From a virus: DNA of 27,888 bases. Where the stretch lies: the IMG/VR virus record IMGVR_UViG_3300030060_000478, positions 3,755-31,642 of that record; one strand, 5' to 3'. The notes beneath the pieces were generated by a model. It saw only the letters and a program-made list of their open reading frames with translations, did no database searches and had not been told where the DNA came from. The position numbers and the translations under genes are program-made. Below, in pieces: positions 9,670 to 20,428 of this stretch (position 1 is the stretch's first letter; each line of letters starts with the position of its first letter).

Positions 9670-10355
9670 ACGGTATGGAAGTTACACTGATAGATCACAT
9701 GGGTTCTGACCTGACAGTGGTAAACGCTGCCAGAGTTTCTTTCAATAAAGAATCAGACTGGGAGTCAATACCAGAGGCAGGACCTGTGCGTGATCTACTT
9801 AATGAATCAGATGAGAGGCTGATCAGATACCTTGCCAAGCATAACCACTGGACACCCTTTGCCCACACCTCTCTCCAGTTTAGGATCAAGGCTCCTATCT
9901 TTGTGGCCAGACAGCTTGGTAAACATCAGGTGGGTCTGGTCTGGAACGAGATCAGTAGGAGATACGTTGACTATGAACCAGAGTTCTACTATCCAGAATA
10001 CTGGAGAGGCAAACCAGATAATAAAAAACAAGGTAGTTCAGAGGAGGAGATAGATATCAACCCTCCCACTGGCTCTGGGCGTGCCATGGTAGATGATTAT
10101 GAACAAGCCATGCAGACATGCAGCTGGACCTATCAGCAGTTGCTACGAAGAGGTGCGGCACCAGAGATGGCACGCATGGTTCTTCCTCAGAGTATGTTTA
10201 CGGAGTGGTACTGGACAGGCAGTCTTGTCTCCTTTGCCAGAGTTTGCTCTCTTAGAATTAAATTAGACGCACAGGAGGAGACTAGAGATATTGCTTCTTT
10301 GATAGAGATAGAATGTGCCAAGTGTTTTCCCATCTCTTGGGATGCGTTAATGTAG
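9666..10355 (+). CDS. thyX: Flavin-dependent thymidylate synthase ThyX
   Basis: ThyX makes dTMP from dUMP with FAD, NADPH and methylene-tetrahydrofolate, and replaces ThyA. Diagnostic parts are HNHWTPFAHTSLQFRIKAPI, then RQLGKHQVGLVWNEISRRYV, and near the end FARVCSLRIKLDAQEETRDI. The canonical RHR-x7-S motif is altered: RHR reads KHQ and the spacing to the Ser is one residue longer. I chose ATG 9666 (229 residues) because it overlaps the preceding stop as ATGA, with GGAGG at 9649-9653 upstream. GTG 9645 and ATG 9654 are in-frame alternatives that lack a suitably placed ribosome site. Of 16 Arg codons from this start, 12 are AGA or AGG. The stop TAG shares its G with the first base of the tRNA. 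Confidence 0.94.
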   Translation: MNGMEVTLIDHMGSDLTVVNAARVSFNKESDWESIPEAGPVRDLLNESDERLIRYLAKHNHWTPFAHTSLQFRIKAPIFVARQLGKHQVGLVWNEISRRYVDYEPEFYYPEYWRGKPDNKKQGSSEEEIDINPPTGSGRAMVDDYEQAMQTCSWTYQQLLRRGAAPEMARMVLPQSMFTEWYWTGSLVSFARVCSLRIKLDAQEETRDIASLIEIECAKCFPISWDALM

Positions 10356-10431
10356 CTTCCGTAGCTCAACTGGATAGAGCAACAGACTTCTAATCTGTAG
10401 GTTGCAGGTTCGAGTCCTGCCGGGAGCGCCA
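10355..10431 (+). tRNA. tRNA-Arg (anticodon UCU)
   Basis: A full cloverleaf can be drawn. The acceptor GCTTCCG pairs with CGGGAGC (one G-T pair). The D arm contains GCTCAACTGGATAGAGC. The anticodon stem ACAGA/TCTGT encloses loop CTTCTAA with anticodon TCT. The T arm is GCAGG TTCGAGT CCTGC. The discriminator is G and CCA is encoded at 10429-10431. It reads AGA and AGG codons, which dominate in the adjacent thyX. The first base is the last base of the thyX TAG, so processing by RNase P must cut right at the end of that message. No integrase is in the window, so use as an attachment site is not supported. Confidence 0.97.
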
Positions 10432-10439
10432 CTATTTGC

Positions 10440-10468
10440 TTGATATAAGATAATTAATATGTTATAAT
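10440..10468 (+). promoter_or_regulatory. Sigma70-type promoter for hsp20
   Basis: TTGATA at 10440-10445 (5 of 6 matches to the -35 consensus) and TATAAT at 10463-10468 (perfect -10) are separated by exactly 17 bp of A/T-rich DNA. Initiation would fall near 10475. It lies between the tRNA and hsp20 and points at hsp20. It implies use of host RNA polymerase with the housekeeping sigma factor. No other match of this quality stood out by eye. Confidence 0.85.
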
Positions 10469-10475
10469 CCTCACT

Positions 10476-10526
10476 GAGGTGCCGCTGTTGGGCCTCTTAA
10501 CAACTTGCTGAAAAGGAGTTTACATT
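10476..10526 (+). promoter_or_regulatory. hsp20 5' leader with two hairpins; candidate ROSE-like RNA thermometer
   Basis: The predicted leader is about 52 bases. Hairpin 1 spans 10476-10496: GAGGT pairs with GCCTC, then one bulged G, then CC with GG, around a GCTGTT loop. Hairpin 2 holds the ribosome binding site. TTGCT (10505-10509) faces AGGAG (10514-10518) across a GAAA tetraloop, giving U-A, C-G, a G-G opposition, U-A and U-G, extended by two A-U pairs (10502-10503 with 10519-10520). UUGCU or UCGCU facing the Shine-Dalgarno with a G-G pair is the hallmark of ROSE thermometers, which control small heat-shock genes including E. coli ibpA. Folding was judged by eye and the motif is short. 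Confidence 0.5.
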
Positions 10527-10952
10527 ATGAATGATGTATTCAAAACACAACTGACCACTGATATGTTTAACAGAATGCTAGGCATGAACAACCTAGTAGC
10601 TGCTCTCAACAACATCAGTTATGAAGATAACAAGTATCCCCCTCACAACGTATACAAAGACGGTGCCAACTATGTGGTGGAGATTGCTCTTGCTGGTTGG
10701 GAAGAGGATGATATCTCTGTCATTGTAGAGAACCTTGAACTTACCATCAAAGGTGAGAAGCAGGACTCAGACACACCTCCAAAGCATATGGCTTACAAGG
10801 GTATCTCTACCAAGAACTTTAGTAAGAAGTTTGTGCTTGCACCTCACTATGTGGTGACAGATGCCACGTTCAAGAACGGTCTACTGACCATTGAAGTCAA
10901 GCATTTTCTACCAGAAGAATTAAAACCTAGAGAGATTAAAATCTCTACTTAG
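10527..10952 (+). CDS. Hsp20/IbpA-like small heat-shock protein
   Basis: This ATP-independent chaperone holds unfolding proteins. The 141-residue product has an alpha-crystallin domain from about residue 38 (PPHNVYKDGANYVVEIALAG) through ENLELTIKGEKQ to the FKNGLLTIEVKH strand. It ends PEELKPREIKI, where IKI is the I-x-I anchor and the surrounding residues resemble the IbpA C-terminus. The N-terminal arm is short. AAAAGGAG at 10511-10518 is a strong ribosome site, and the leader may hide it (see the leader entry). The gene has its own sigma70-like promoter, unlike its operon-bound neighbours. Small heat-shock proteins are known in marine phages. The role in phage assembly or stress is inference. 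The 3' end overlaps the convergent Rz1 gene by 8 bp. Confidence 0.95.
   Translation: MNDVFKTQLTTDMFNRMLGMNNLVAALNNISYEDNKYPPHNVYKDGANYVVEIALAGWEEDDISVIVENLELTIKGEKQDSDTPPKHMAYKGISTKNFSKKFVLAPHYVVTDATFKNGLLTIEVKHFLPEELKPREIKIST
10931..10946. other. Perfect inverted repeat at the convergent gene junction
   Basis: AGAGAT, TAAA, ATCTCT forms a perfect 6-bp stem with a 4-base loop inside the 3' ends of hsp20 and, in part, Rz1. It lies exactly where plus- and minus-strand transcription meet. The stem is A/T-rich and no T-run follows on the plus strand. On the minus strand GGTTTTA follows four bases later. It could be a weak bidirectional pause or RNA-end signal, but it does not meet the usual terminator criteria. 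Confidence 0.3.
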
Positions 10953-11567: not shown

Positions 11568-11862
11568 CGTCCAGTATCTCCTGTGTAAATTTATTTGCTC
11601 CAGTTATTAGATCATTCTTGATATACTCTAGGACAAAAAGAAGTGACGTTGATTTTATATTACCAGCCATCACATCCTCTGCCAGATCACCGTCCTTGAA
11701 CATAAGAAGGACAGCACCGTCAATACTTTCTTCTTTTACTCTTTCTTCAAGAAGCGTAACACATTTCTTTAGATGCTGCAACGCCTGTTCTTTTCCCTCT
11801 TCATTCAAGCTACCATCCGGGTTTAAAATTGTTGAGTTTGTAAACTTAACTACATCCCCCAT
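11560..11862 (-). CDS. Small acidic protein of the lysis block, unknown function
   Basis: From the ATG at 11862 the product is 100 residues, mainly helical and acidic, with no membrane segment or recognised motif (MGDVVKFTNSTILNPDGSLN at the start, EILDDD at the end). I prefer this start because GGAAGGGG lies 8 bases before it. An in-frame ATG at 11880 would add six residues but has only a weak ribosome site. It overlaps the end of the large glycan-enzyme gene by 13 bases and the holin candidate by 8. Function unknown. Confidence 0.75.
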   Translation of the reverse strand: MGDVVKFTNSTILNPDGSLNEEGKEQALQHLKKCVTLLEERVKEESIDGAVLLMFKDGDLAEDVMAGNIKSTSLLFVLEYIKNDLITGANKFTQEILDDD

Positions 11863-14111
11863 TGTTGATACCCCTTCCATGGTTCTGGTTTCTCAATGTC
11901 CCATATCTCCTGACCCATTCCTGCACCCTTGAACTGTACGTCTAGGTCCATATCCTTACAGGTCTTGAACAACTTCTCTAGGTCCTGTGCACCTGCCAGT
12001 AACTCTCCTGTTGTCCAAAAGCTCTTGTCTCCCACAGATACATTGAGATACTTTGGTTTACCCTCTTCATCCAGAGCCTTCTGGTCATCTTCAGAGGGGT
12101 CCTTACCAAGACTCATGTCAAAGCCATAGAGATGGAACTGCCGAAACCCTATGGTGTGTCCAATGCCAATGGTCCTGAGACCAGCGTTGGTTCCTCCGGT
12201 GATCATCAGTGCATCTTGTCCTGACCCTTCGATACCTCCTTTGACAGCTTGAGAGAAGGCGTGCCAGCCTACAACGTGAGCACCTTTATCTTGTAGCAGG
12301 TCCACCACAGATGGATCAGTCATAGACGCTACCCAGAAGTGAGTGCGTGGGCTGATGCTTTCAAAGAGTGTGCTCCTGACCACGCCGTGAGTGGATACAC
12401 CCTCCACTGGTCTTGGATCAAGCAGGGTACATGCCCAAGGAACAAGTCCATTATCCATCAGAATGGGCAGAGAGTGTTTGACACAGACAACCTTGACAGT
12501 CTTGTTACCCTCCTCCAGCATCTCTTTATCTTCTTTGATCTGAGCAACATCCAGAGAGGGACCAGCAGATACAACAAAGATAATCTCGTTATTGATCCTG
12601 CACTTCTCATCAATCCACTTGTCAATCTTTGTTAGATTTGCTTTGATGTTGTTCTGAATATCATCAGAGGGTACGCAATCCTTGGGCGTTACAATGATAG
12701 GAACTCTGGCCTTGAACTTGGGAAGATCAGGGTCAATAACTAGGCCTAGATGTGTAAACCCACCACCCTTGACAGGATCATTGGAGGGTATGACATACAC
12801 ATTGGCATCTTCTCTTTCTTTGATCTCCTCTGTCCAGAGTTTGTTGACACCTCTGTGTTCTTCTTCTGGCCAGTTGTCATTGTCATCCTTACTGAAGTAG
12901 TCATCCAGAACAACAACCTTATTGTGCATTAGCTGATGGTAATCGTGTGATACAGTTTCATAGGAGTGACCACCGTCAATGAACACAAGATCAGCCACAG
13001 GTTTATCTGTCAGAGTCTCGTTGGTATCTCCCTCAACCAGCTTGAACTCAAAGGTCTTACCCTCTTTTGCTTTCTCAATGGCATACTCTGCCAGCCGCTC
13101 TGACACAGACTCTGCAGTGTTATTTGCCTTGGAGTTAAACTCCTTCTCGTTCATCTCTGGCGTGGCTGTGCCAAACAGATCATATCCTACATAGGTTACC
13201 TTGTCATGGTAATCAAAGGCAGCGTCTGCCATCTGTATGGCTCTGCCTCCGTTGTATGTACCAGTCTCAATGAAGCTGCTGCACTTGTAGAAGTGGATCA
13301 TCTCACTGATCTGTTTGTATCTCTTGTGATGCTCAAGACTTACATCTTTTGAGACACCGTTCTTTAGATCACCCTTGAAGTGCTCCATTTTCTCTGACAG
13401 AACAGAGAAACTAAAGGCATTGAGATCAGGAACATCGGGCGTCAGGTTCAGTGCGTGTAGCCCATGGTACTGGTGCAGCTTGAGCAGACGTTCAAAGATA
13501 AAGCCATCGTGCCACTCTCTGAAAGCAGTCACCTCACAGTTGTCATAGGTCTCTCGTAGATCAGCCAGAAAATCTTTGGCAGGTCTACCTTTGAGATTGA
13601 AGGCAACAAAGGATGTTTCACTATAGTCAGCAGCTGTGCGCCCCAGATGTACAACATCATATTCTTCATCACACACAGAGTCAAGAAACTCTTTGGTCAC
13701 AGGAGAATGTGTTATGGTATCTGCATCTAACCAGATAAGCCAGTCTTTACCCTGTAGCATATGAGTATCAGAGGCAGTCTCTGTCAGGGCATAGACCTTG
13801 TGACACCACTTGATAGCATCTAGTCTCCAGTTGTAGTCAATGCGCCCACCCTCTGTGCCGTTGTGCACCTCCATCTTCTCTCTGTAGTTGAGCATATCTT
13901 CTATATTGTTTAGGTTACAGTAGTTGATATGTTGGGATGGTATGTCTAATTCTTTAAACCTAAGATAGAATGCTTGTTCTCCAAAGTCATGGAACCAAGC
14001 ATGTAGTTTTATGTCTTCTTCCCAGTGATCAGCAAAGGAGTTGAGCATGTTTCTCCCGTATAGTTCTAGCCCATCAGGATTGAAAGATGTTACAATATCA
14101 TACTTACTCAT
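11850..14111 (-). CDS. Three-domain glycosyltransferase / methyltransferase / DUF115 protein
   Basis: Three enzyme-like domains lie in 753 residues. At about 1-250 there is a GT-A-type glycosyltransferase with a DxD motif in WLDADT (D129, D131), where a nucleotide sugar and metal would bind. At about 270-460 there is a class I SAM methyltransferase of the TylF/Methyltransf_24 kind, with ETGTYNGG (282-289), VGYDLF (308-313), FIDGGHSYE (377-385) and VVLDDYF (400-406). From about 505 a DUF115/Maf-like domain starts with FVVSAGPSLD (512-521). That family is linked to flagellin glycosylation and sialyltransferase folds. GGAGAT precedes the ATG by about 10 bases. The gene follows a GT8-like gene after one spacer base. 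The product would modify a glycan on virion or host. Domain calls are by motif, and the substrate is unknown. Confidence 0.82.
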   Translation of the reverse strand: MSKYDIVTSFNPDGLELYGRNMLNSFADHWEEDIKLHAWFHDFGEQAFYLRFKELDIPSQHINYCNLNNIEDMLNYREKMEVHNGTEGGRIDYNWRLDAIKWCHKVYALTETASDTHMLQGKDWLIWLDADTITHSPVTKEFLDSVCDEEYDVVHLGRTAADYSETSFVAFNLKGRPAKDFLADLRETYDNCEVTAFREWHDGFIFERLLKLHQYHGLHALNLTPDVPDLNAFSFSVLSEKMEHFKGDLKNGVSKDVSLEHHKRYKQISEMIHFYKCSSFIETGTYNGGRAIQMADAAFDYHDKVTYVGYDLFGTATPEMNEKEFNSKANNTAESVSERLAEYAIEKAKEGKTFEFKLVEGDTNETLTDKPVADLVFIDGGHSYETVSHDYHQLMHNKVVVLDDYFSKDDNDNWPEEEHRGVNKLWTEEIKEREDANVYVIPSNDPVKGGGFTHLGLVIDPDLPKFKARVPIIVTPKDCVPSDDIQNNIKANLTKIDKWIDEKCRINNEIIFVVSAGPSLDVAQIKEDKEMLEEGNKTVKVVCVKHSLPILMDNGLVPWACTLLDPRPVEGVSTHGVVRSTLFESISPRTHFWVASMTDPSVVDLLQDKGAHVVGWHAFSQAVKGGIEGSGQDALMITGGTNAGLRTIGIGHTIGFRQFHLYGFDMSLGKDPSEDDQKALDEEGKPKYLNVSVGDKSFWTTGELLAGAQDLEKLFKTCKDMDLDVQFKGAGMGQEIWDIEKPEPWKGYQQWGM

Positions 14112-14941: not shown

Positions 14942-17900
14942 CTAGTCTACAAGCCCTTCTTTTTGTCTGGTCTGTAGTGCCTCTATGCCACCAGTATATT
15001 TTCCTAGGCCTAAGACTTGATCAACATAACGCTTGTGAGCAGTGTTCCTTATGTTAAAGTTGGGATCAATCATGTCAGACATCTGCTCTTGTTTCAGGTC
15101 ATGTTCAAGAACTTCTTTAAATAGTTTTTCTATCTGAGCACCTAGTTCTGCTTTCTCTTCTGATGAGTCAACATTCTTTTGCCTGACCATAAGTCTTAAA
15201 ACTTTATCAAGATAAAAATCTTTGATGGCATTACTTTTTGTAAGTAAGTTCTTTTCTCTGTACAATCTTTGTCTAGGTAAGAAAACATTCTCAGTTGAAA
15301 AACCTAGTGTCATCAGAGCAAGGTCATGTGGCTGTAAGGAGTCTGTCAAGAGTCTACCTTTACCTGAAAACACTCCTGTTTCTCCTGCCTCCCAAGCATT
15401 GATCATGTTCTGAACAATGGCCAGTGGAATAAGTCTTAAAATACCTTTGCCTAGGTCACCTCTTTCAAAAGCATCATAAGATTTTCCTATGGAGTTTGTA
15501 AAGAAAGAACCAGCAGGACCAGTGAAAAGTTCTGTAACAGAGGCTTGCCCTGTACCAGCTTCAATAAGAGTCCTGAAAGGAGAAAGAGAAACACGTTGAG
15601 CAATATCAACACCTCCCCATGCTTTGATAGGTCCTCTTGCAATAGCTTCTGAAAGAGACAGAGCCTCTGGTCCAAAGTGATCTGTCATTATATCATAGAA
15701 GGCAAGCTCTAAATCTGATTGTTGGAGACCCAGTGATTTACCTATAGGTGATCTTACCAAGGCCTTGATAACTTCTTTCATGTCATCTGCAAAGGGAAGA
15801 CCAAACATACCACCCATCAGAACTTGTGTAAGAACCAAGAACGCAAGTGTTCTTCTTCCTTGAGGGGTCATTCTAAGAACACCGCCCTTGATAGTTCCGT
15901 ACTTGTTACCACCGTACCTGTGAATAGCGTTGGCATATACCTCTGTCATCATGGTAACAAAAGGAATAAACTGGAGAGCAATACCACCTAGGCCTCCACC
16001 CGCAAAGGCAATACGAGGTCTGTTAAAAGCACTAAGATTAAACTGACTTTCATCTACCATGTATTGCATAGCATCTTCTATGCTGACTATCTCTCCTTGA
16101 CTAGCTGTCTCAGCAGCAAACTCTACCATTGGTTCTAGTCCTGCATTGATGATAGCCTTTTCATCTGTCACACCTTTGAGCTTCTGCTCACCGTGTGCCT
16201 TCACAGTATTATAGGTTGCCAAAGCAGCTGCAATTCTGTTGGCAATCTCAGTGGTAGAATATACACCGTCTACTATTTTTTTACCAGTTCTTGCGTAGTC
16301 TTTAAACCTTTGTACGTTTTCTACATCTAGTCCCTTTCTAGCTATATTCTCTACAGAGTTAAGGCCTAGCTTGTCACTCCAATATTCTGTGGTAAGATCA
16401 GCGTTCTGACTTAGTGCTGCAGTGTTGATCCTTCCAATAACACCGCGCCGCTGTAGTTCATATAGTTTATTAAACTGATCGTTTGCCTCTGTTGCGTTTC
16501 TCGCTGCACCTGTCTGTTGGAGTATGCGTACAACATTCACCCTATCTGCTTCTAGAAACGCTTGCTTTCTAGAATAGTAGATTGACAACCTAGCTGCTGC
16601 AGCTGCTGCTTTACTGACCTTGGGTTGAAAAAGTTTACCGTATGCTCCGTACAACAGAGAGGCAGTGACAAAGTTTTGTGTAAGATTAAGAAAGGAAGAG
16701 GAAAAATTACCACCTAGGAAACCATAGAAGGCTATACTTTTTAGAGCAGAGGCAGCACCCTGTGGAGACTTAGTATTGTTCCACATGGTATCCGCAACTT
16801 CTAAAAAGTTACCCGGAAGTTTTCTTTGCTGTAGTTTATCTAAACGGTCTAGCTCTGCTTTAACCTCATCTTCAACACCATTCTTAGCAACGTACCTACC
16901 CATGGAGGTAACATACTGCGCCCATGCGTTATCATGGTAAGACTCTACGTTATCAGCTGTAAGATATCCGGGAATGTTCTTTCTTTGCATCAAAGAACCT
17001 CCGAAACCTTGACCTTGCATACGCTCTCTTCTTTGCTTGGCTAAGAATCTTATAAATGCTGCAGTATCTTTTATTGGTTTGGATTCTACATTACCATCTT
17101 GATCTACATATGTGCCTCTCCACAGCACAGTCTTACCAGAAAAATCTTCATTTAGTTTAGCTTCGTGAATAAGAATGGACTCTAGCACAGCCATGTCCAT
17201 TAGCTCTGATTCAGCAAACACACTGTAGTTTTCATCTCCCTTGGCCACAACCTCAATTTGTACATCTAAACCTTTGTCTTTATAAAACTGTTCCAAAGGA
17301 GCTTTGTACTTGTTGTTTATAAAGTTCATAGCCTGTTGATCTTGATTAGTTCCGGGCTTGAACCTACCTATTAGTGACTGGGCATACGGAGTATTGACAT
17401 CTCTACGGTAGACAACCTTTCTAGTTTTTCTACCGTCTGAGTCAGTGATAGTTGTAAATGCTCTGATGATAAAGTCACCTGCTCTGATGCGTGGGAAGTA
17501 ACCCTCTCTTCTGTTTTTAATAGAAGAGGTGAGTTCACTTATAGCTTCAGGCATGATCTCTAAAGCTTCTTTAGAAACATTGAGACCTTGTTCTTTCTCT
17601 GCTTTTATTTTTTGTGTGTTGTTTACTCTTTCTAAAGCACGTAAGAAAAGATCAAACTCTGCAACTTCAGTAAGGATATCATCTCTTGTAAGACCACGCT
17701 CTACTAGTATAGCATCTTCTTCAGCTTCTATTGTGCGAGTGCTATTTGTTTTGCCACCAGCTTTCTCATCAGCATCTTTTAATCTTCTTTTTATGCTGTC
17801 TATTCTACTACCTATCAGGTTGTCCCACATAGACTCAATGGTTCTTTGCTCTTGAAACAAAGCATTTACAACAAGAGGATCACGTTCTTCTATAAACCCT

Positions 17901-20428
17901 TGTTGTATTTCTTCTTCAGTAAAATTTAAATTTAATTTACCAGAGTCTGGGTCATACTCTTGATAGGGCATGACTTCTTTCAGGTAGAGTCTTCTTCTTT
18001 CTACATCTGGCACATTGTCATACTGACCTTCTACACCCTCTATCATTGGTATGTTTATACGTGCAACTCCACCTGCTGCTGCTATATCACCACTCTCTGG
18101 AAACTCAATGGGTGCGCTTACCAGATCAGCTTTCACTCTCATGTTCCTGTACTTCTGCCTAAGTTCTCCACGGGGTAGAGCAAGAACAAGACTTCTACCC
18201 TCTATACCCTGAGTTATAATAGAGAACCACTTTTCATTATACCTCTTGACAAGGTTGTACATTTTGCGTAGTTCAGGAAACTTATCTGCTAACCTTTTAT
18301 TAGAGGACATATACCTCATGTAGAAACCTACACGGTTGAGCATACCTTGAGGACCGTTGTCCCTTACATTTACAGGGCGAGGAGCCTCTGTGTCCATACC
18401 CTTTCTAGGTCCTTGAGCATTACCAGCTTCTATTAGATTGTCTACGTTTTTCTTTGTCTCAGGATCAAACTTAGTTTGAGGAGCAGCTTTCTTTACCGCT
18501 TCATCAAACTTGACATATACAGTTTCAAGTCTTTTAGGACTAAACTCCATTCTTGTTCTAGGATCAACTCTAAGAAAAGGAATTTGTTTTTTTATGTGAT
18601 CTGCCAGAGCTAACATTTCTTGAGCAATGGGTAAGTTAGATAAAAGATTAGAGTCTTCTGGTATAGGAGCTTTCATCAAGTTATCAAGATAAATATTAGC
18701 TCCTTCTTGAAATTTTATTGGTAGTTGCGCTCCTCCTTCAGTTGTTTCTAGAATAGGTGCGTCATTTAAATCTGTAAGTTCTGGTAGAATATCTGCTTCT
18801 CCCACTATACCTGCAGGAACAGAGGCAGCTTTTATCTCAGCTGTCCTAGCATCTATTTCTAAACCTATGTTGTCTAATTGTTTTTTTAGAGCAGGGTGTT
18901 TGTTAAGAGAAGCTTGAAACTGAGGAGTGCTAATAATTTTATTCATCTCAGTTAGCTTTTTTATTCTTAATCTTAGATTGTTTGATACTTTTGCAGCGCC
19001 TTTAATATTTCCGCTGACTAATCCTAGTTCTTGTTCAGCCCTAAGATCAGTGGCTTCTTTGGACAGATCAGCGTACTCATTAAGAAAAGCAGCTGTGCCA
19101 TCACCAGACTCAGAGAACTGTTGGTCATCTCTGTTTCTCAGGTTCATAACATCTGCTAGTTCTCCTATGTCAGTGGCAGGTGCTACGTCATTCTCAATAT
19201 CAGCTGCTTGAGTTTCTGCTGCCTCTACATAGTCAGTCTTGCTTTCAGGAGTTTTAATCTCAGCAGAGTCATCAATCTTTGGAGCCTCTTCTTCTTTTAA
19301 ATCTTCATAGTTTTTTCCCTTACCTCCCTTGAGTGCACCTACAACAGCACCGGGACCAAACCCTGCTATGCCACCTTTGACAGCAGACTCTAGAATAGAA
19401 GAAAGAAACTCTTCATCTTCTACTCCTGTGGAGCCTTGTGCAAGGAGACTACCAATTGCCTCTTGTGTTCCCTCTGTTAGACCCTCTCTGGCAAGCTGCT
19501 TTGTTCCCTCTACACCAGCACCCACCAGTCTACCTCTGCTGACATCTCTGGCACCTGCAACAATGTTAGCCTCTGCTTTTGCAAAGTCTCCACCTGCTTT
19601 CTTTAGCTCATCTATTGCAGTGGCTGTGCCATTCTTAGAGACAACAAAATCAATACCTGACTTTTCTAGTGCTTCAGAGGTGGCTTTCTGAGTAAAACCT
19701 TTACTTAAAAGTTTAAGAGCAGGTATAGCAGCAGCAGCAGTGTCCAGAGCACCTATGATAAGACCACCTGTGATAGCAGTGGCAGGGTCCTCATAGTCAG
19801 AATCATCTACAAGGTTCTGCATCTTTAGCTGAACCTCACCTGCGCCCATCAGAGAGGACGGGAGAAAGGCACCTGCCAGTCCTCCTGCAGTGGCGGTCAG
19901 GGCAGCAACAGGAGTAGCAGCAGCTGCAGCAGCACCTAGGGCAGCACCTCCTGCAGCTATGCCCATAGAGGGTAGAGTTTCTCCCAGTGTTTGGATGATA
20001 AAGTCAGTGGTGTTCTCACCAAAGTCTACGTCATCTAGTCTGATTTGTCTGTACTGTTTAGCAGATTCTTCTGCTTCTTTTAGATTTCTTTCTTCTAGGT
20101 CTCTTCCATATTCCTCTAGACCTTCTATGTTGAGACCCTGACCAACAGCTTTGATACCTGCACCTAGGGCAGCTTGTGCTGTGTCTGCTCCGTAGGCCAG
20201 AGCAGGGAGGAAGTTGTCATCTGAAGGAGGAGGTGCAGGAGCAGGTTCTGGATCAGGAGTAGAAGAAGGTTCTTCAAAAGATTTAATGATGAAGTCAATA
20301 ACCTCTGCCTCTGATTTACCAACTAACTCTGGAAAATCTTCTGATGCCAAACCGTACTTACCTAGGTCAAAGGTATCACCACCCTCCATTGTAGGAATGG
20401 TGATATCTCCTGTAAGTATCTCAGACAT
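14942..20428 (-). CDS. Very large virion (internal/ejection) protein
   Basis: At 1828 residues this is the longest gene here. It has an acidic start, a Pro/Glu-rich linker (about 52-70), long Ala/Gly-rich hydrophobic stretches at about 152-195 and 219-242, a charged disordered zone, a long helical body, and more hydrophobic segments near 1480-1540 (IALQFIPFVTMMTEVY, then TLAFLVLTQVLMGGMFG). The last third resembles the C-terminal part of large phage polyvalent or PLxRFG-type proteins. Its position corresponds to T7 gene 16, whose product is ejected and spans the cell envelope. I see no lytic transglycosylase motif. The start abuts the preceding stop with only a weak ribosome site, so it is probably translated by coupling. 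Virion location is inference from size, composition and order. Confidence 0.75.
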   Translation of the reverse strand: MSEILTGDITIPTMEGGDTFDLGKYGLASEDFPELVGKSEAEVIDFIIKSFEEPSSTPDPEPAPAPPPSDDNFLPALAYGADTAQAALGAGIKAVGQGLNIEGLEEYGRDLEERNLKEAEESAKQYRQIRLDDVDFGENTTDFIIQTLGETLPSMGIAAGGAALGAAAAAATPVAALTATAGGLAGAFLPSSLMGAGEVQLKMQNLVDDSDYEDPATAITGGLIIGALDTAAAAIPALKLLSKGFTQKATSEALEKSGIDFVVSKNGTATAIDELKKAGGDFAKAEANIVAGARDVSRGRLVGAGVEGTKQLAREGLTEGTQEAIGSLLAQGSTGVEDEEFLSSILESAVKGGIAGFGPGAVVGALKGGKGKNYEDLKEEEAPKIDDSAEIKTPESKTDYVEAAETQAADIENDVAPATDIGELADVMNLRNRDDQQFSESGDGTAAFLNEYADLSKEATDLRAEQELGLVSGNIKGAAKVSNNLRLRIKKLTEMNKIISTPQFQASLNKHPALKKQLDNIGLEIDARTAEIKAASVPAGIVGEADILPELTDLNDAPILETTEGGAQLPIKFQEGANIYLDNLMKAPIPEDSNLLSNLPIAQEMLALADHIKKQIPFLRVDPRTRMEFSPKRLETVYVKFDEAVKKAAPQTKFDPETKKNVDNLIEAGNAQGPRKGMDTEAPRPVNVRDNGPQGMLNRVGFYMRYMSSNKRLADKFPELRKMYNLVKRYNEKWFSIITQGIEGRSLVLALPRGELRQKYRNMRVKADLVSAPIEFPESGDIAAAGGVARINIPMIEGVEGQYDNVPDVERRRLYLKEVMPYQEYDPDSGKLNLNFTEEEIQQGFIEERDPLVVNALFQEQRTIESMWDNLIGSRIDSIKRRLKDADEKAGGKTNSTRTIEAEEDAILVERGLTRDDILTEVAEFDLFLRALERVNNTQKIKAEKEQGLNVSKEALEIMPEAISELTSSIKNRREGYFPRIRAGDFIIRAFTTITDSDGRKTRKVVYRRDVNTPYAQSLIGRFKPGTNQDQQAMNFINNKYKAPLEQFYKDKGLDVQIEVVAKGDENYSVFAESELMDMAVLESILIHEAKLNEDFSGKTVLWRGTYVDQDGNVESKPIKDTAAFIRFLAKQRRERMQGQGFGGSLMQRKNIPGYLTADNVESYHDNAWAQYVTSMGRYVAKNGVEDEVKAELDRLDKLQQRKLPGNFLEVADTMWNNTKSPQGAASALKSIAFYGFLGGNFSSSFLNLTQNFVTASLLYGAYGKLFQPKVSKAAAAAARLSIYYSRKQAFLEADRVNVVRILQQTGAARNATEANDQFNKLYELQRRGVIGRINTAALSQNADLTTEYWSDKLGLNSVENIARKGLDVENVQRFKDYARTGKKIVDGVYSTTEIANRIAAALATYNTVKAHGEQKLKGVTDEKAIINAGLEPMVEFAAETASQGEIVSIEDAMQYMVDESQFNLSAFNRPRIAFAGGGLGGIALQFIPFVTMMTEVYANAIHRYGGNKYGTIKGGVLRMTPQGRRTLAFLVLTQVLMGGMFGLPFADDMKEVIKALVRSPIGKSLGLQQSDLELAFYDIMTDHFGPEALSLSEAIARGPIKAWGGVDIAQRVSLSPFRTLIEAGTGQASVTELFTGPAGSFFTNSIGKSYDAFERGDLGKGILRLIPLAIVQNMINAWEAGETGVFSGKGRLLTDSLQPHDLALMTLGFSTENVFLPRQRLYREKNLLTKSNAIKDFYLDKVLRLMVRQKNVDSSEEKAELGAQIEKLFKEVLEHDLKQEQMSDMIDPNFNIRNTAHKRYVDQVLGLGKYTGGIEALQTRQKEGLVD

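Follow-up and report, generated by a model that had tools for sequence, protein, structure and literature searches.

The window analyzed here, that is, the whole stretch of 27,888 nucleotides, is part of a 31.6-kb virus record from a marine phage, and its phage genes encode PolA, a DnaB-type helicase with a Toprim domain, a B12-type RNR, ThyX, a Cas4-type exonuclease, a DNA ejection protein, and a head/packaging protein, the DNA polymerase being nearest to those of the Pelagibacter phages HTVC103P, HTVC104P, and HTVC115P (43–46% identity). Two further products of the minus strand may be mentioned in passing: a 753-aa protein (11850–14111) in a phage structural region, which combines Methyltransf_24 and MptE-like domains, and an 1828-aa protein (14942–20428) that is unmatched in 50,697 phage records and in PHROGs and probably represents a new group of internal virion proteins. 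The present analysis focuses on the hsp20 gene and on what lies directly before it:

10355–10431, plus strand: tRNA-Arg (TCT), between thyX and the hsp20 promoter, a neighbor outside the element (ARAGORN)
10440–10445, plus strand: −35 box TTGATA (direct reading; 17-base spacing)
10460–10468, plus strand: extended −10, TG-T-TATAAT (direct reading)
10475–10526, plus strand: hsp20 5′ leader of about 52 bases, its start at about 10475 placed from the −10 box
10476–10496, plus strand: hairpin I, GAGGU / bulged G10481 / CC, loop GCUGUU, GG / GCCUC (ROSE_3 alignment, covariation, energies)
10502–10520, plus strand: hairpin II, AACUU[G]CU GAAA AGGAGUU, which sequesters the Shine-Dalgarno (SD) and is the predicted thermosensor (folding; covariation in relatives)
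10505–10509, plus strand: U(U/C)GCU ROSE anti-SD motif with bulged G10507 (sequence, ROSE_3 match, relatives)
10510–10513, plus strand: GAAA between anti-SD and SD (direct reading)
10514–10518, plus strand: Shine-Dalgarno AGGAG (direct reading, relatives)
10527–10952, plus strand: hsp20, encoding a 141-aa class-A, IbpA-like small heat-shock protein (PF00011, E 8e-14; phrog_432 "Hsp20 heat shock protein", E 1e-29), with its ATG at 10527–10529

The promoter TTGATA-17-TATAAT that a sequence-only reading of this DNA had put forward is borne out by direct reading (spacer at 10446–10462, TATAAT at 10463–10468), and that reading had overlooked the additional TG of an extended −10 at 10460–10461. An Hsp20 of 85–99% identity is encoded by 16 viral contigs, all of which have a tRNA match upstream of hsp20; in 13 of these 16 relatives, a −35 box of the form TTGATA, TTGAAA, or TTGAAG stands at a spacing of 17 bases (the relative L002 was judged by eye), and the same 13 have TGn followed by TATAAT, TATATT, or TATACT, such that the arrangement TTGAnn-17-TGn-TATANT is kept despite a differing spacer. 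In the relatives L002 (by eye), L007, and L008, an inverted repeat, GTAGAGAA...TTCTCTAC, replaces the sigma70 promoter upstream of hairpin I and is possibly a terminator or a processing hairpin. The host-type nature of the promoter, as initially proposed, holds for the phage lineage of the window but not beyond it, where T4-like relatives usually have TAAATA: of 95 distinct leaders of such relatives (e.g., L035–L077 and L111–L190), 71 have this motif ahead of the element, against 4% in shuffles, and its sequence looks like a T4 late promoter. A search of the record for a T7-type RNA polymerase gave 0 matches, as did the search's own controls.

With regard to the leader itself, sequence, folding, and covariation all agree with the earlier description of about 52 bases with a 5′ hairpin at 10476–10496, ending at the Hsp20 ATG, and TTGCT (10505–10509) does face AGGAG (10514–10518) across GAAA. 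Hairpin I is predicted to be stable (−12.3 kcal/mol at 20 °C, −8.6 at 37 °C). Folded as a short piece, the SD hairpin has its optimum in seven base pairs with G10507 bulged, namely A10502-U10520, A10503-U10519, C10504-G10518, U10505-A10517, U10506·G10516, C10508-G10515, and U10509-A10514. A G opposite a G had been claimed at this place; we dropped that register because the pair changes seen in relatives are explained by the bulged-G register and not by the G-opposite-G one. When the leader of the window is folded within a longer stretch, a competing register (AAC/GUU plus CUU/AAG) comes out as preferred by the energy model, with A10514, G10515, and G10518 paired and G10516 and A10517 open; the ribosome site is predicted to be at least partly paired at low temperature.

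The two hairpins turned out to be no peculiarity of this phage. Both are kept in the leaders of all 16 close relatives, where hairpin I shows a double change at its fourth pair, some leaders having A-U there and others G-C. Two DNA patterns run against 2.9 million viral contigs retrieved 61 stretches, 57 of which lie directly before an Hsp20 open reading frame, and the two-hairpin architecture is present in 62 of 62 distinct leaders of a sample picked by Hsp20 protein alone, in which only relatives of the S-CAM8 protein were considered. Of the 26 named phage records surveyed, the element was seen in 24 (by parse or by eye), including many Kyanoviridae genera, the Methylophilales phage Melnitz-3, and the Pelagibacter phages HTVC103P and HTVC115P, as well as the jumbo phages Agrobacterium phage Atu_ph07 and Pseudomonas phage PA5oct, in which the SD helix is imperfect; within the same 26 records, the hsp20 leaders of two related Vibrio phages (PWH3a-P1 and IBT_VpB-34; L104 and L109) are without it. 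These two Vibrio phage leaders have another conserved stretch in common, ACACGAGACAATAGA.ATATTGCTCAT. In P-HM2 (L272 263–337, NC_015284.1), the element falls inside the annotated hsp20 gene, the leader being annotated as coding, and the true ATG therefore lies about 72 bases downstream of the annotated start. The phage-borne ROSE element anticipated as a notable find is present, but instead of being a lone curiosity it is what phage hsp20 genes typically have before them.

To quantify this conservation, we applied a strict structural rule under which anti-SD and SD must form five canonical pairs that flank a bulged G, and hairpin I must have at least four pairs beside a bulged G before CC...GG. 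Of 102 distinct leaders of phage hsp20 genes, 98 pass this parse, as opposed to 4 of 10,481 control ATGs (a true Pseudomonas ROSE among these four) and, after shuffling, 1 of 10,200 leaders, with the proviso that the parse was devised after the leaders were seen and that the sequences are related, so that the counts are not independent events. The covariation of hairpin I was measured on 39 leaders in an alignment built without structure (A10): double changes occur in 5 of 8 pairs, 92.9% of cells are paired, 75 cells are double-change cells, and the score is 0.646 versus 0.205 ± 0.024 (sd) when shuffled and at most 0.171 when slid. Since the MAFFT alignments A5, A6, and A10 misplaced the SD, A10 served for hairpin I only and the covariation of the SD helix was followed through the anchored parse. 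There, the compensatory sets CUCGCU/AGGAG, GUCGCU/AGGAC, and AUCGCU/AGGAU are found: C10504-G10518 becomes G-C in S-RSM4, ACG-2014i, and L182 and A-U in HTVC103P, U10509-A10514 becomes C-G in S-CREM2, and the position of U10506·G10516 is C-G in about two thirds of leaders. TTGCT and AGGAG are conserved or co-varying across related and unrelated phages, as the initial proposal required. Covariance models also carry over between lineages, with E-values that are rough because calibration was short: a model of the window lineage and uncultured T4-like phages (R1) matches the leaders of cyanophages, Melnitz-3, and C48C1, correctly placed, and for a model of cyanophages only (R2) the window leader is the sole match in 27.9 kb (E 0.013). 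The caveat that so short a motif could arise by chance, supported here by weak single-sequence Rfam scores, is hardly credible in view of this strong covariation and of the 98 of 102 leaders set against a single shuffle in 10,200, and we take a chance resemblance to be excluded because the element is conserved across phages.

As for membership in the ROSE class, the Rfam check proposed at the outset gave a divided answer. In a scan of 221 bases, ROSE_3 (RF02523) matches the full leader from 10473 to 10532, a few bases beyond the Hsp20 ATG (E 0.0097), but its 22.4 bits are below the gathering cut-off of 43, and ROSE (RF00435) and ROSE_2 (RF01832) leave the window leader unmatched up to E 10; at gathering level, Rfam yields tRNA only in the window and its relatives. 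Other phage leaders score 23.2 bits (the relative L003) to ROSE_3, or 34.1 for Melnitz-3, the best phage. Judged from sequence, the phage elements are best read as a clade that would lie outside Rfam's models. Relative to the literature definition of the class, U(U/C)GCU pairs imperfectly with the SD in a 3′-proximal hairpin with a bulged G, a pairing that 99 of 102 leaders conserve or vary in concert; it is preceded by a stable 5′ hairpin, and compensatory changes preserve the structure. For translation that would rise with temperature as the SD hairpin melts, the analysis covered the predicted stability of the hairpins across temperatures. A record of Pseudomonas phage Y7 (L110, OQ572409.1, marked UNVERIFIED) contains a Pseudomonas-type ibpA with ROSE_3 at 69.2 bits, in a stretch that is probably bacterial (Pseudomonas) genomic DNA inside a phage record.

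Among known systems, the closest counterpart is the short ROSE-like element of Pseudomonas ibpA (ROSE_3, RF02523; PMC3669281), which likewise has two hairpins in a leader of about 52–62 bases before a class-A small heat-shock gene, with a stable hairpin I whose bulged G stands before CC...GG and a hairpin II that pairs U(U/C)GCU with the SD. The phage element differs by residing in phage genomes, by its weaker hairpin II, by scoring under the Rfam cut-off, by SD variants (AGGAC, AGGAU) with matching anti-SDs, and by promoters of sigma70 type or resembling T4 late ones, where Pseudomonas uses sigma32. The ROSE of rhizobial hspA (RF00435) and the ROSE_2 of E. coli ibpA (RF01832) also set U(U/C)GCU against the SD of small heat-shock genes, and the Salmonella ibpA leader has a bulged-G hairpin I of the same kind, but these two families comprise three to four hairpins and have no match in the window up to E 10. 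The thermometers of cyanobacterial small heat-shock genes, such as Synechocystis hsp17 (PMC4477652, PMC4166951), occur in a group related to some hosts of element-bearing phages and occupy the same place before the gene, yet they are structurally unrelated to ROSE, whereas cyanophages carry the proteobacterial-type element. Other temperature-responsive or candidate RNAs of phages and prophages, namely the lambda cIII switch (PMC4166951) and fourU elements before SP-beta blyA and a Caudoviricetes sigma70 gene (PMC11342760), are non-ROSE and do not precede a chaperone gene.

For hairpin II of the window, the predicted stability is −6.3 kcal/mol at 10 °C and drops to −1.5 at 42 °C, and several phage hairpins II lie between −4 and −6 kcal/mol at 20 °C (−5.6 in one example), against −12.1 for Pseudomonas and −7.1 for Salmonella, from which switching is predicted at lower, ocean-like temperatures. 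However, the cost of opening the SD at 20 °C does not distinguish hsp20 leaders from 44 other AGGAG-led genes (median 4.72 kcal/mol, p = 0.17), for which reason we dropped energy alone as a proof of thermosensing. Given this ordinary cost and the competing register, the case for thermosensing is built on homology to the short two-hairpin ROSE elements of Pseudomonas, which are proven thermometers (PMC3669281), and not on the energy model. Of the ROSE-type control of Hsp20 originally suggested, the fold, the masking of the SD, and the conservation stand; as the fold precedes hsp20, with strong compensatory changes, in almost every phage examined, many of them infecting ocean cyanobacteria, these phages probably control the chaperone by temperature.

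We consider it likely that the leader acts as a short, phage-borne, two-hairpin ROSE-type RNA thermometer controlling Hsp20 translation, a reading supported at the sequence level by the promoter, the covariation of both hairpins, the deep conservation before phage hsp20, and the weak ROSE_3 match. A host sigma70-type promoter would start the transcript at about 10475 (a start that we infer), the stable 5′ hairpin I would fold first, and the weak hairpin II, in which U(U/C)GCU pairs with AGGAG around the bulged G, would make ribosome binding poor when it is cool. Warming, we infer, would then melt hairpin II within the cell and let the ribosome bind, so that the chaperone would be made while proteins are at risk, to the presumed benefit of the phage.

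The main rival of this thermometer reading, or its partner, is auto-repression by Hsp20, because a cationic residue aligned with R93 of IbpA is kept. The fold would then mainly be a site at which the phage Hsp20 binds its own leader until aggregating protein draws it off, and the signal would be protein damage during infection instead of temperature, as with E. coli IbpA, a repressor of its own translation that acts on the ROSE-bearing leader and for which R93 is essential (PMC10474464). In the examined ROSE-bearing phage Hsp20s, the site aligned with R93 (GIAERNF in Salmonella) is mostly R (S-RSM4, S-CAM8, Bellamy, Melnitz-3, HTVC103P, HTVC115P, and L036), with K in PA5oct, C48C1, and the window lineage; Salmonella IbpB has Q here. 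A hairpin I that is conserved and, in Pseudomonas, non-melting would fit a binding role. However, what compensatory changes preserve is the SD helix and no fixed sequence, and deletion and point mutants in Pseudomonas reveal thermosensing for which hairpin II alone suffices (PMC3669281), such that auto-repression as the main function seems possible rather than probable, in addition to which the two can coexist.

It is rather unlikely that the hairpins merely set a low constant rate of translation or stabilize the mRNA, with no special role for temperature: the SD opening cost of the window phage is indeed ordinary, but the conserved bulged-G U(U/C)GCU register, the ROSE_3 match, and the tie to one gene family across unrelated phages would be left unexplained. 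The adjacency of hsp20 and regA in several cyanophages (S-RSM4, Bellamy, ACG-2014i) could also suggest that the leader is an operator bound by a phage protein, for instance RegA, the translational repressor of T4-like phages, an idea to which we give very little credence, as the element is also found in non-T4 phages (the window lineage, HTVC103P, HTVC115P) and resembles the Salmonella ibpA leader.

Regarding the origin of the putative thermometer, the nearest cellular Hsp20s are those of SAR86 (44%) and alphaproteobacterial class-A small heat-shock proteins. Read by eye, the SAR86 leader is likewise laid out as two hairpins of this type (GAUGGU[G]CUC...GAG-G-CCAUC and AGUCGCU/AGGAGGACU), and the phage model gives weak matches to several alphaproteobacterial leaders. 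Since the nearest cellular homologs also bear ROSE-like leaders, the phage lineage most likely acquired the gene and its leader together from a proteobacterium. The deep nodes of the Hsp20 tree are weak, the window lineage being placed nearest SAR86 with low support, and capture from bacteria may have occurred once or repeatedly; in a broad Hsp20 alignment, the conserved stretches are too short for finding distant relatives.

From a broader perspective, hsp20 is a widespread gene of marine cyanophages, in which its expression is usually discussed at the promoter level only. A literature search that covered mostly open-access journals found no report of a cyanophage hsp20 thermometer or of a phage ROSE. 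Our observations extend ROSE elements to viruses and provide more than 100 naturally occurring variants whose compensatory changes bear on the bulged-G mechanism; they also correct at least one annotated start codon (P-HM2), and isolates with culturable hosts allow testing. We lean, if only slightly, toward the wider view that ROSE thermometers are standard in marine phages, as a virus-wide clade retuned to the ocean that ties chaperone translation to water temperature, even in cyanobacteria, where the relatives of the hosts use unrelated thermometers. If these leaders were genuine thermometers, they would let these viruses respond to sea temperature directly and without a protein, which would have effects on infection as the ocean warms.
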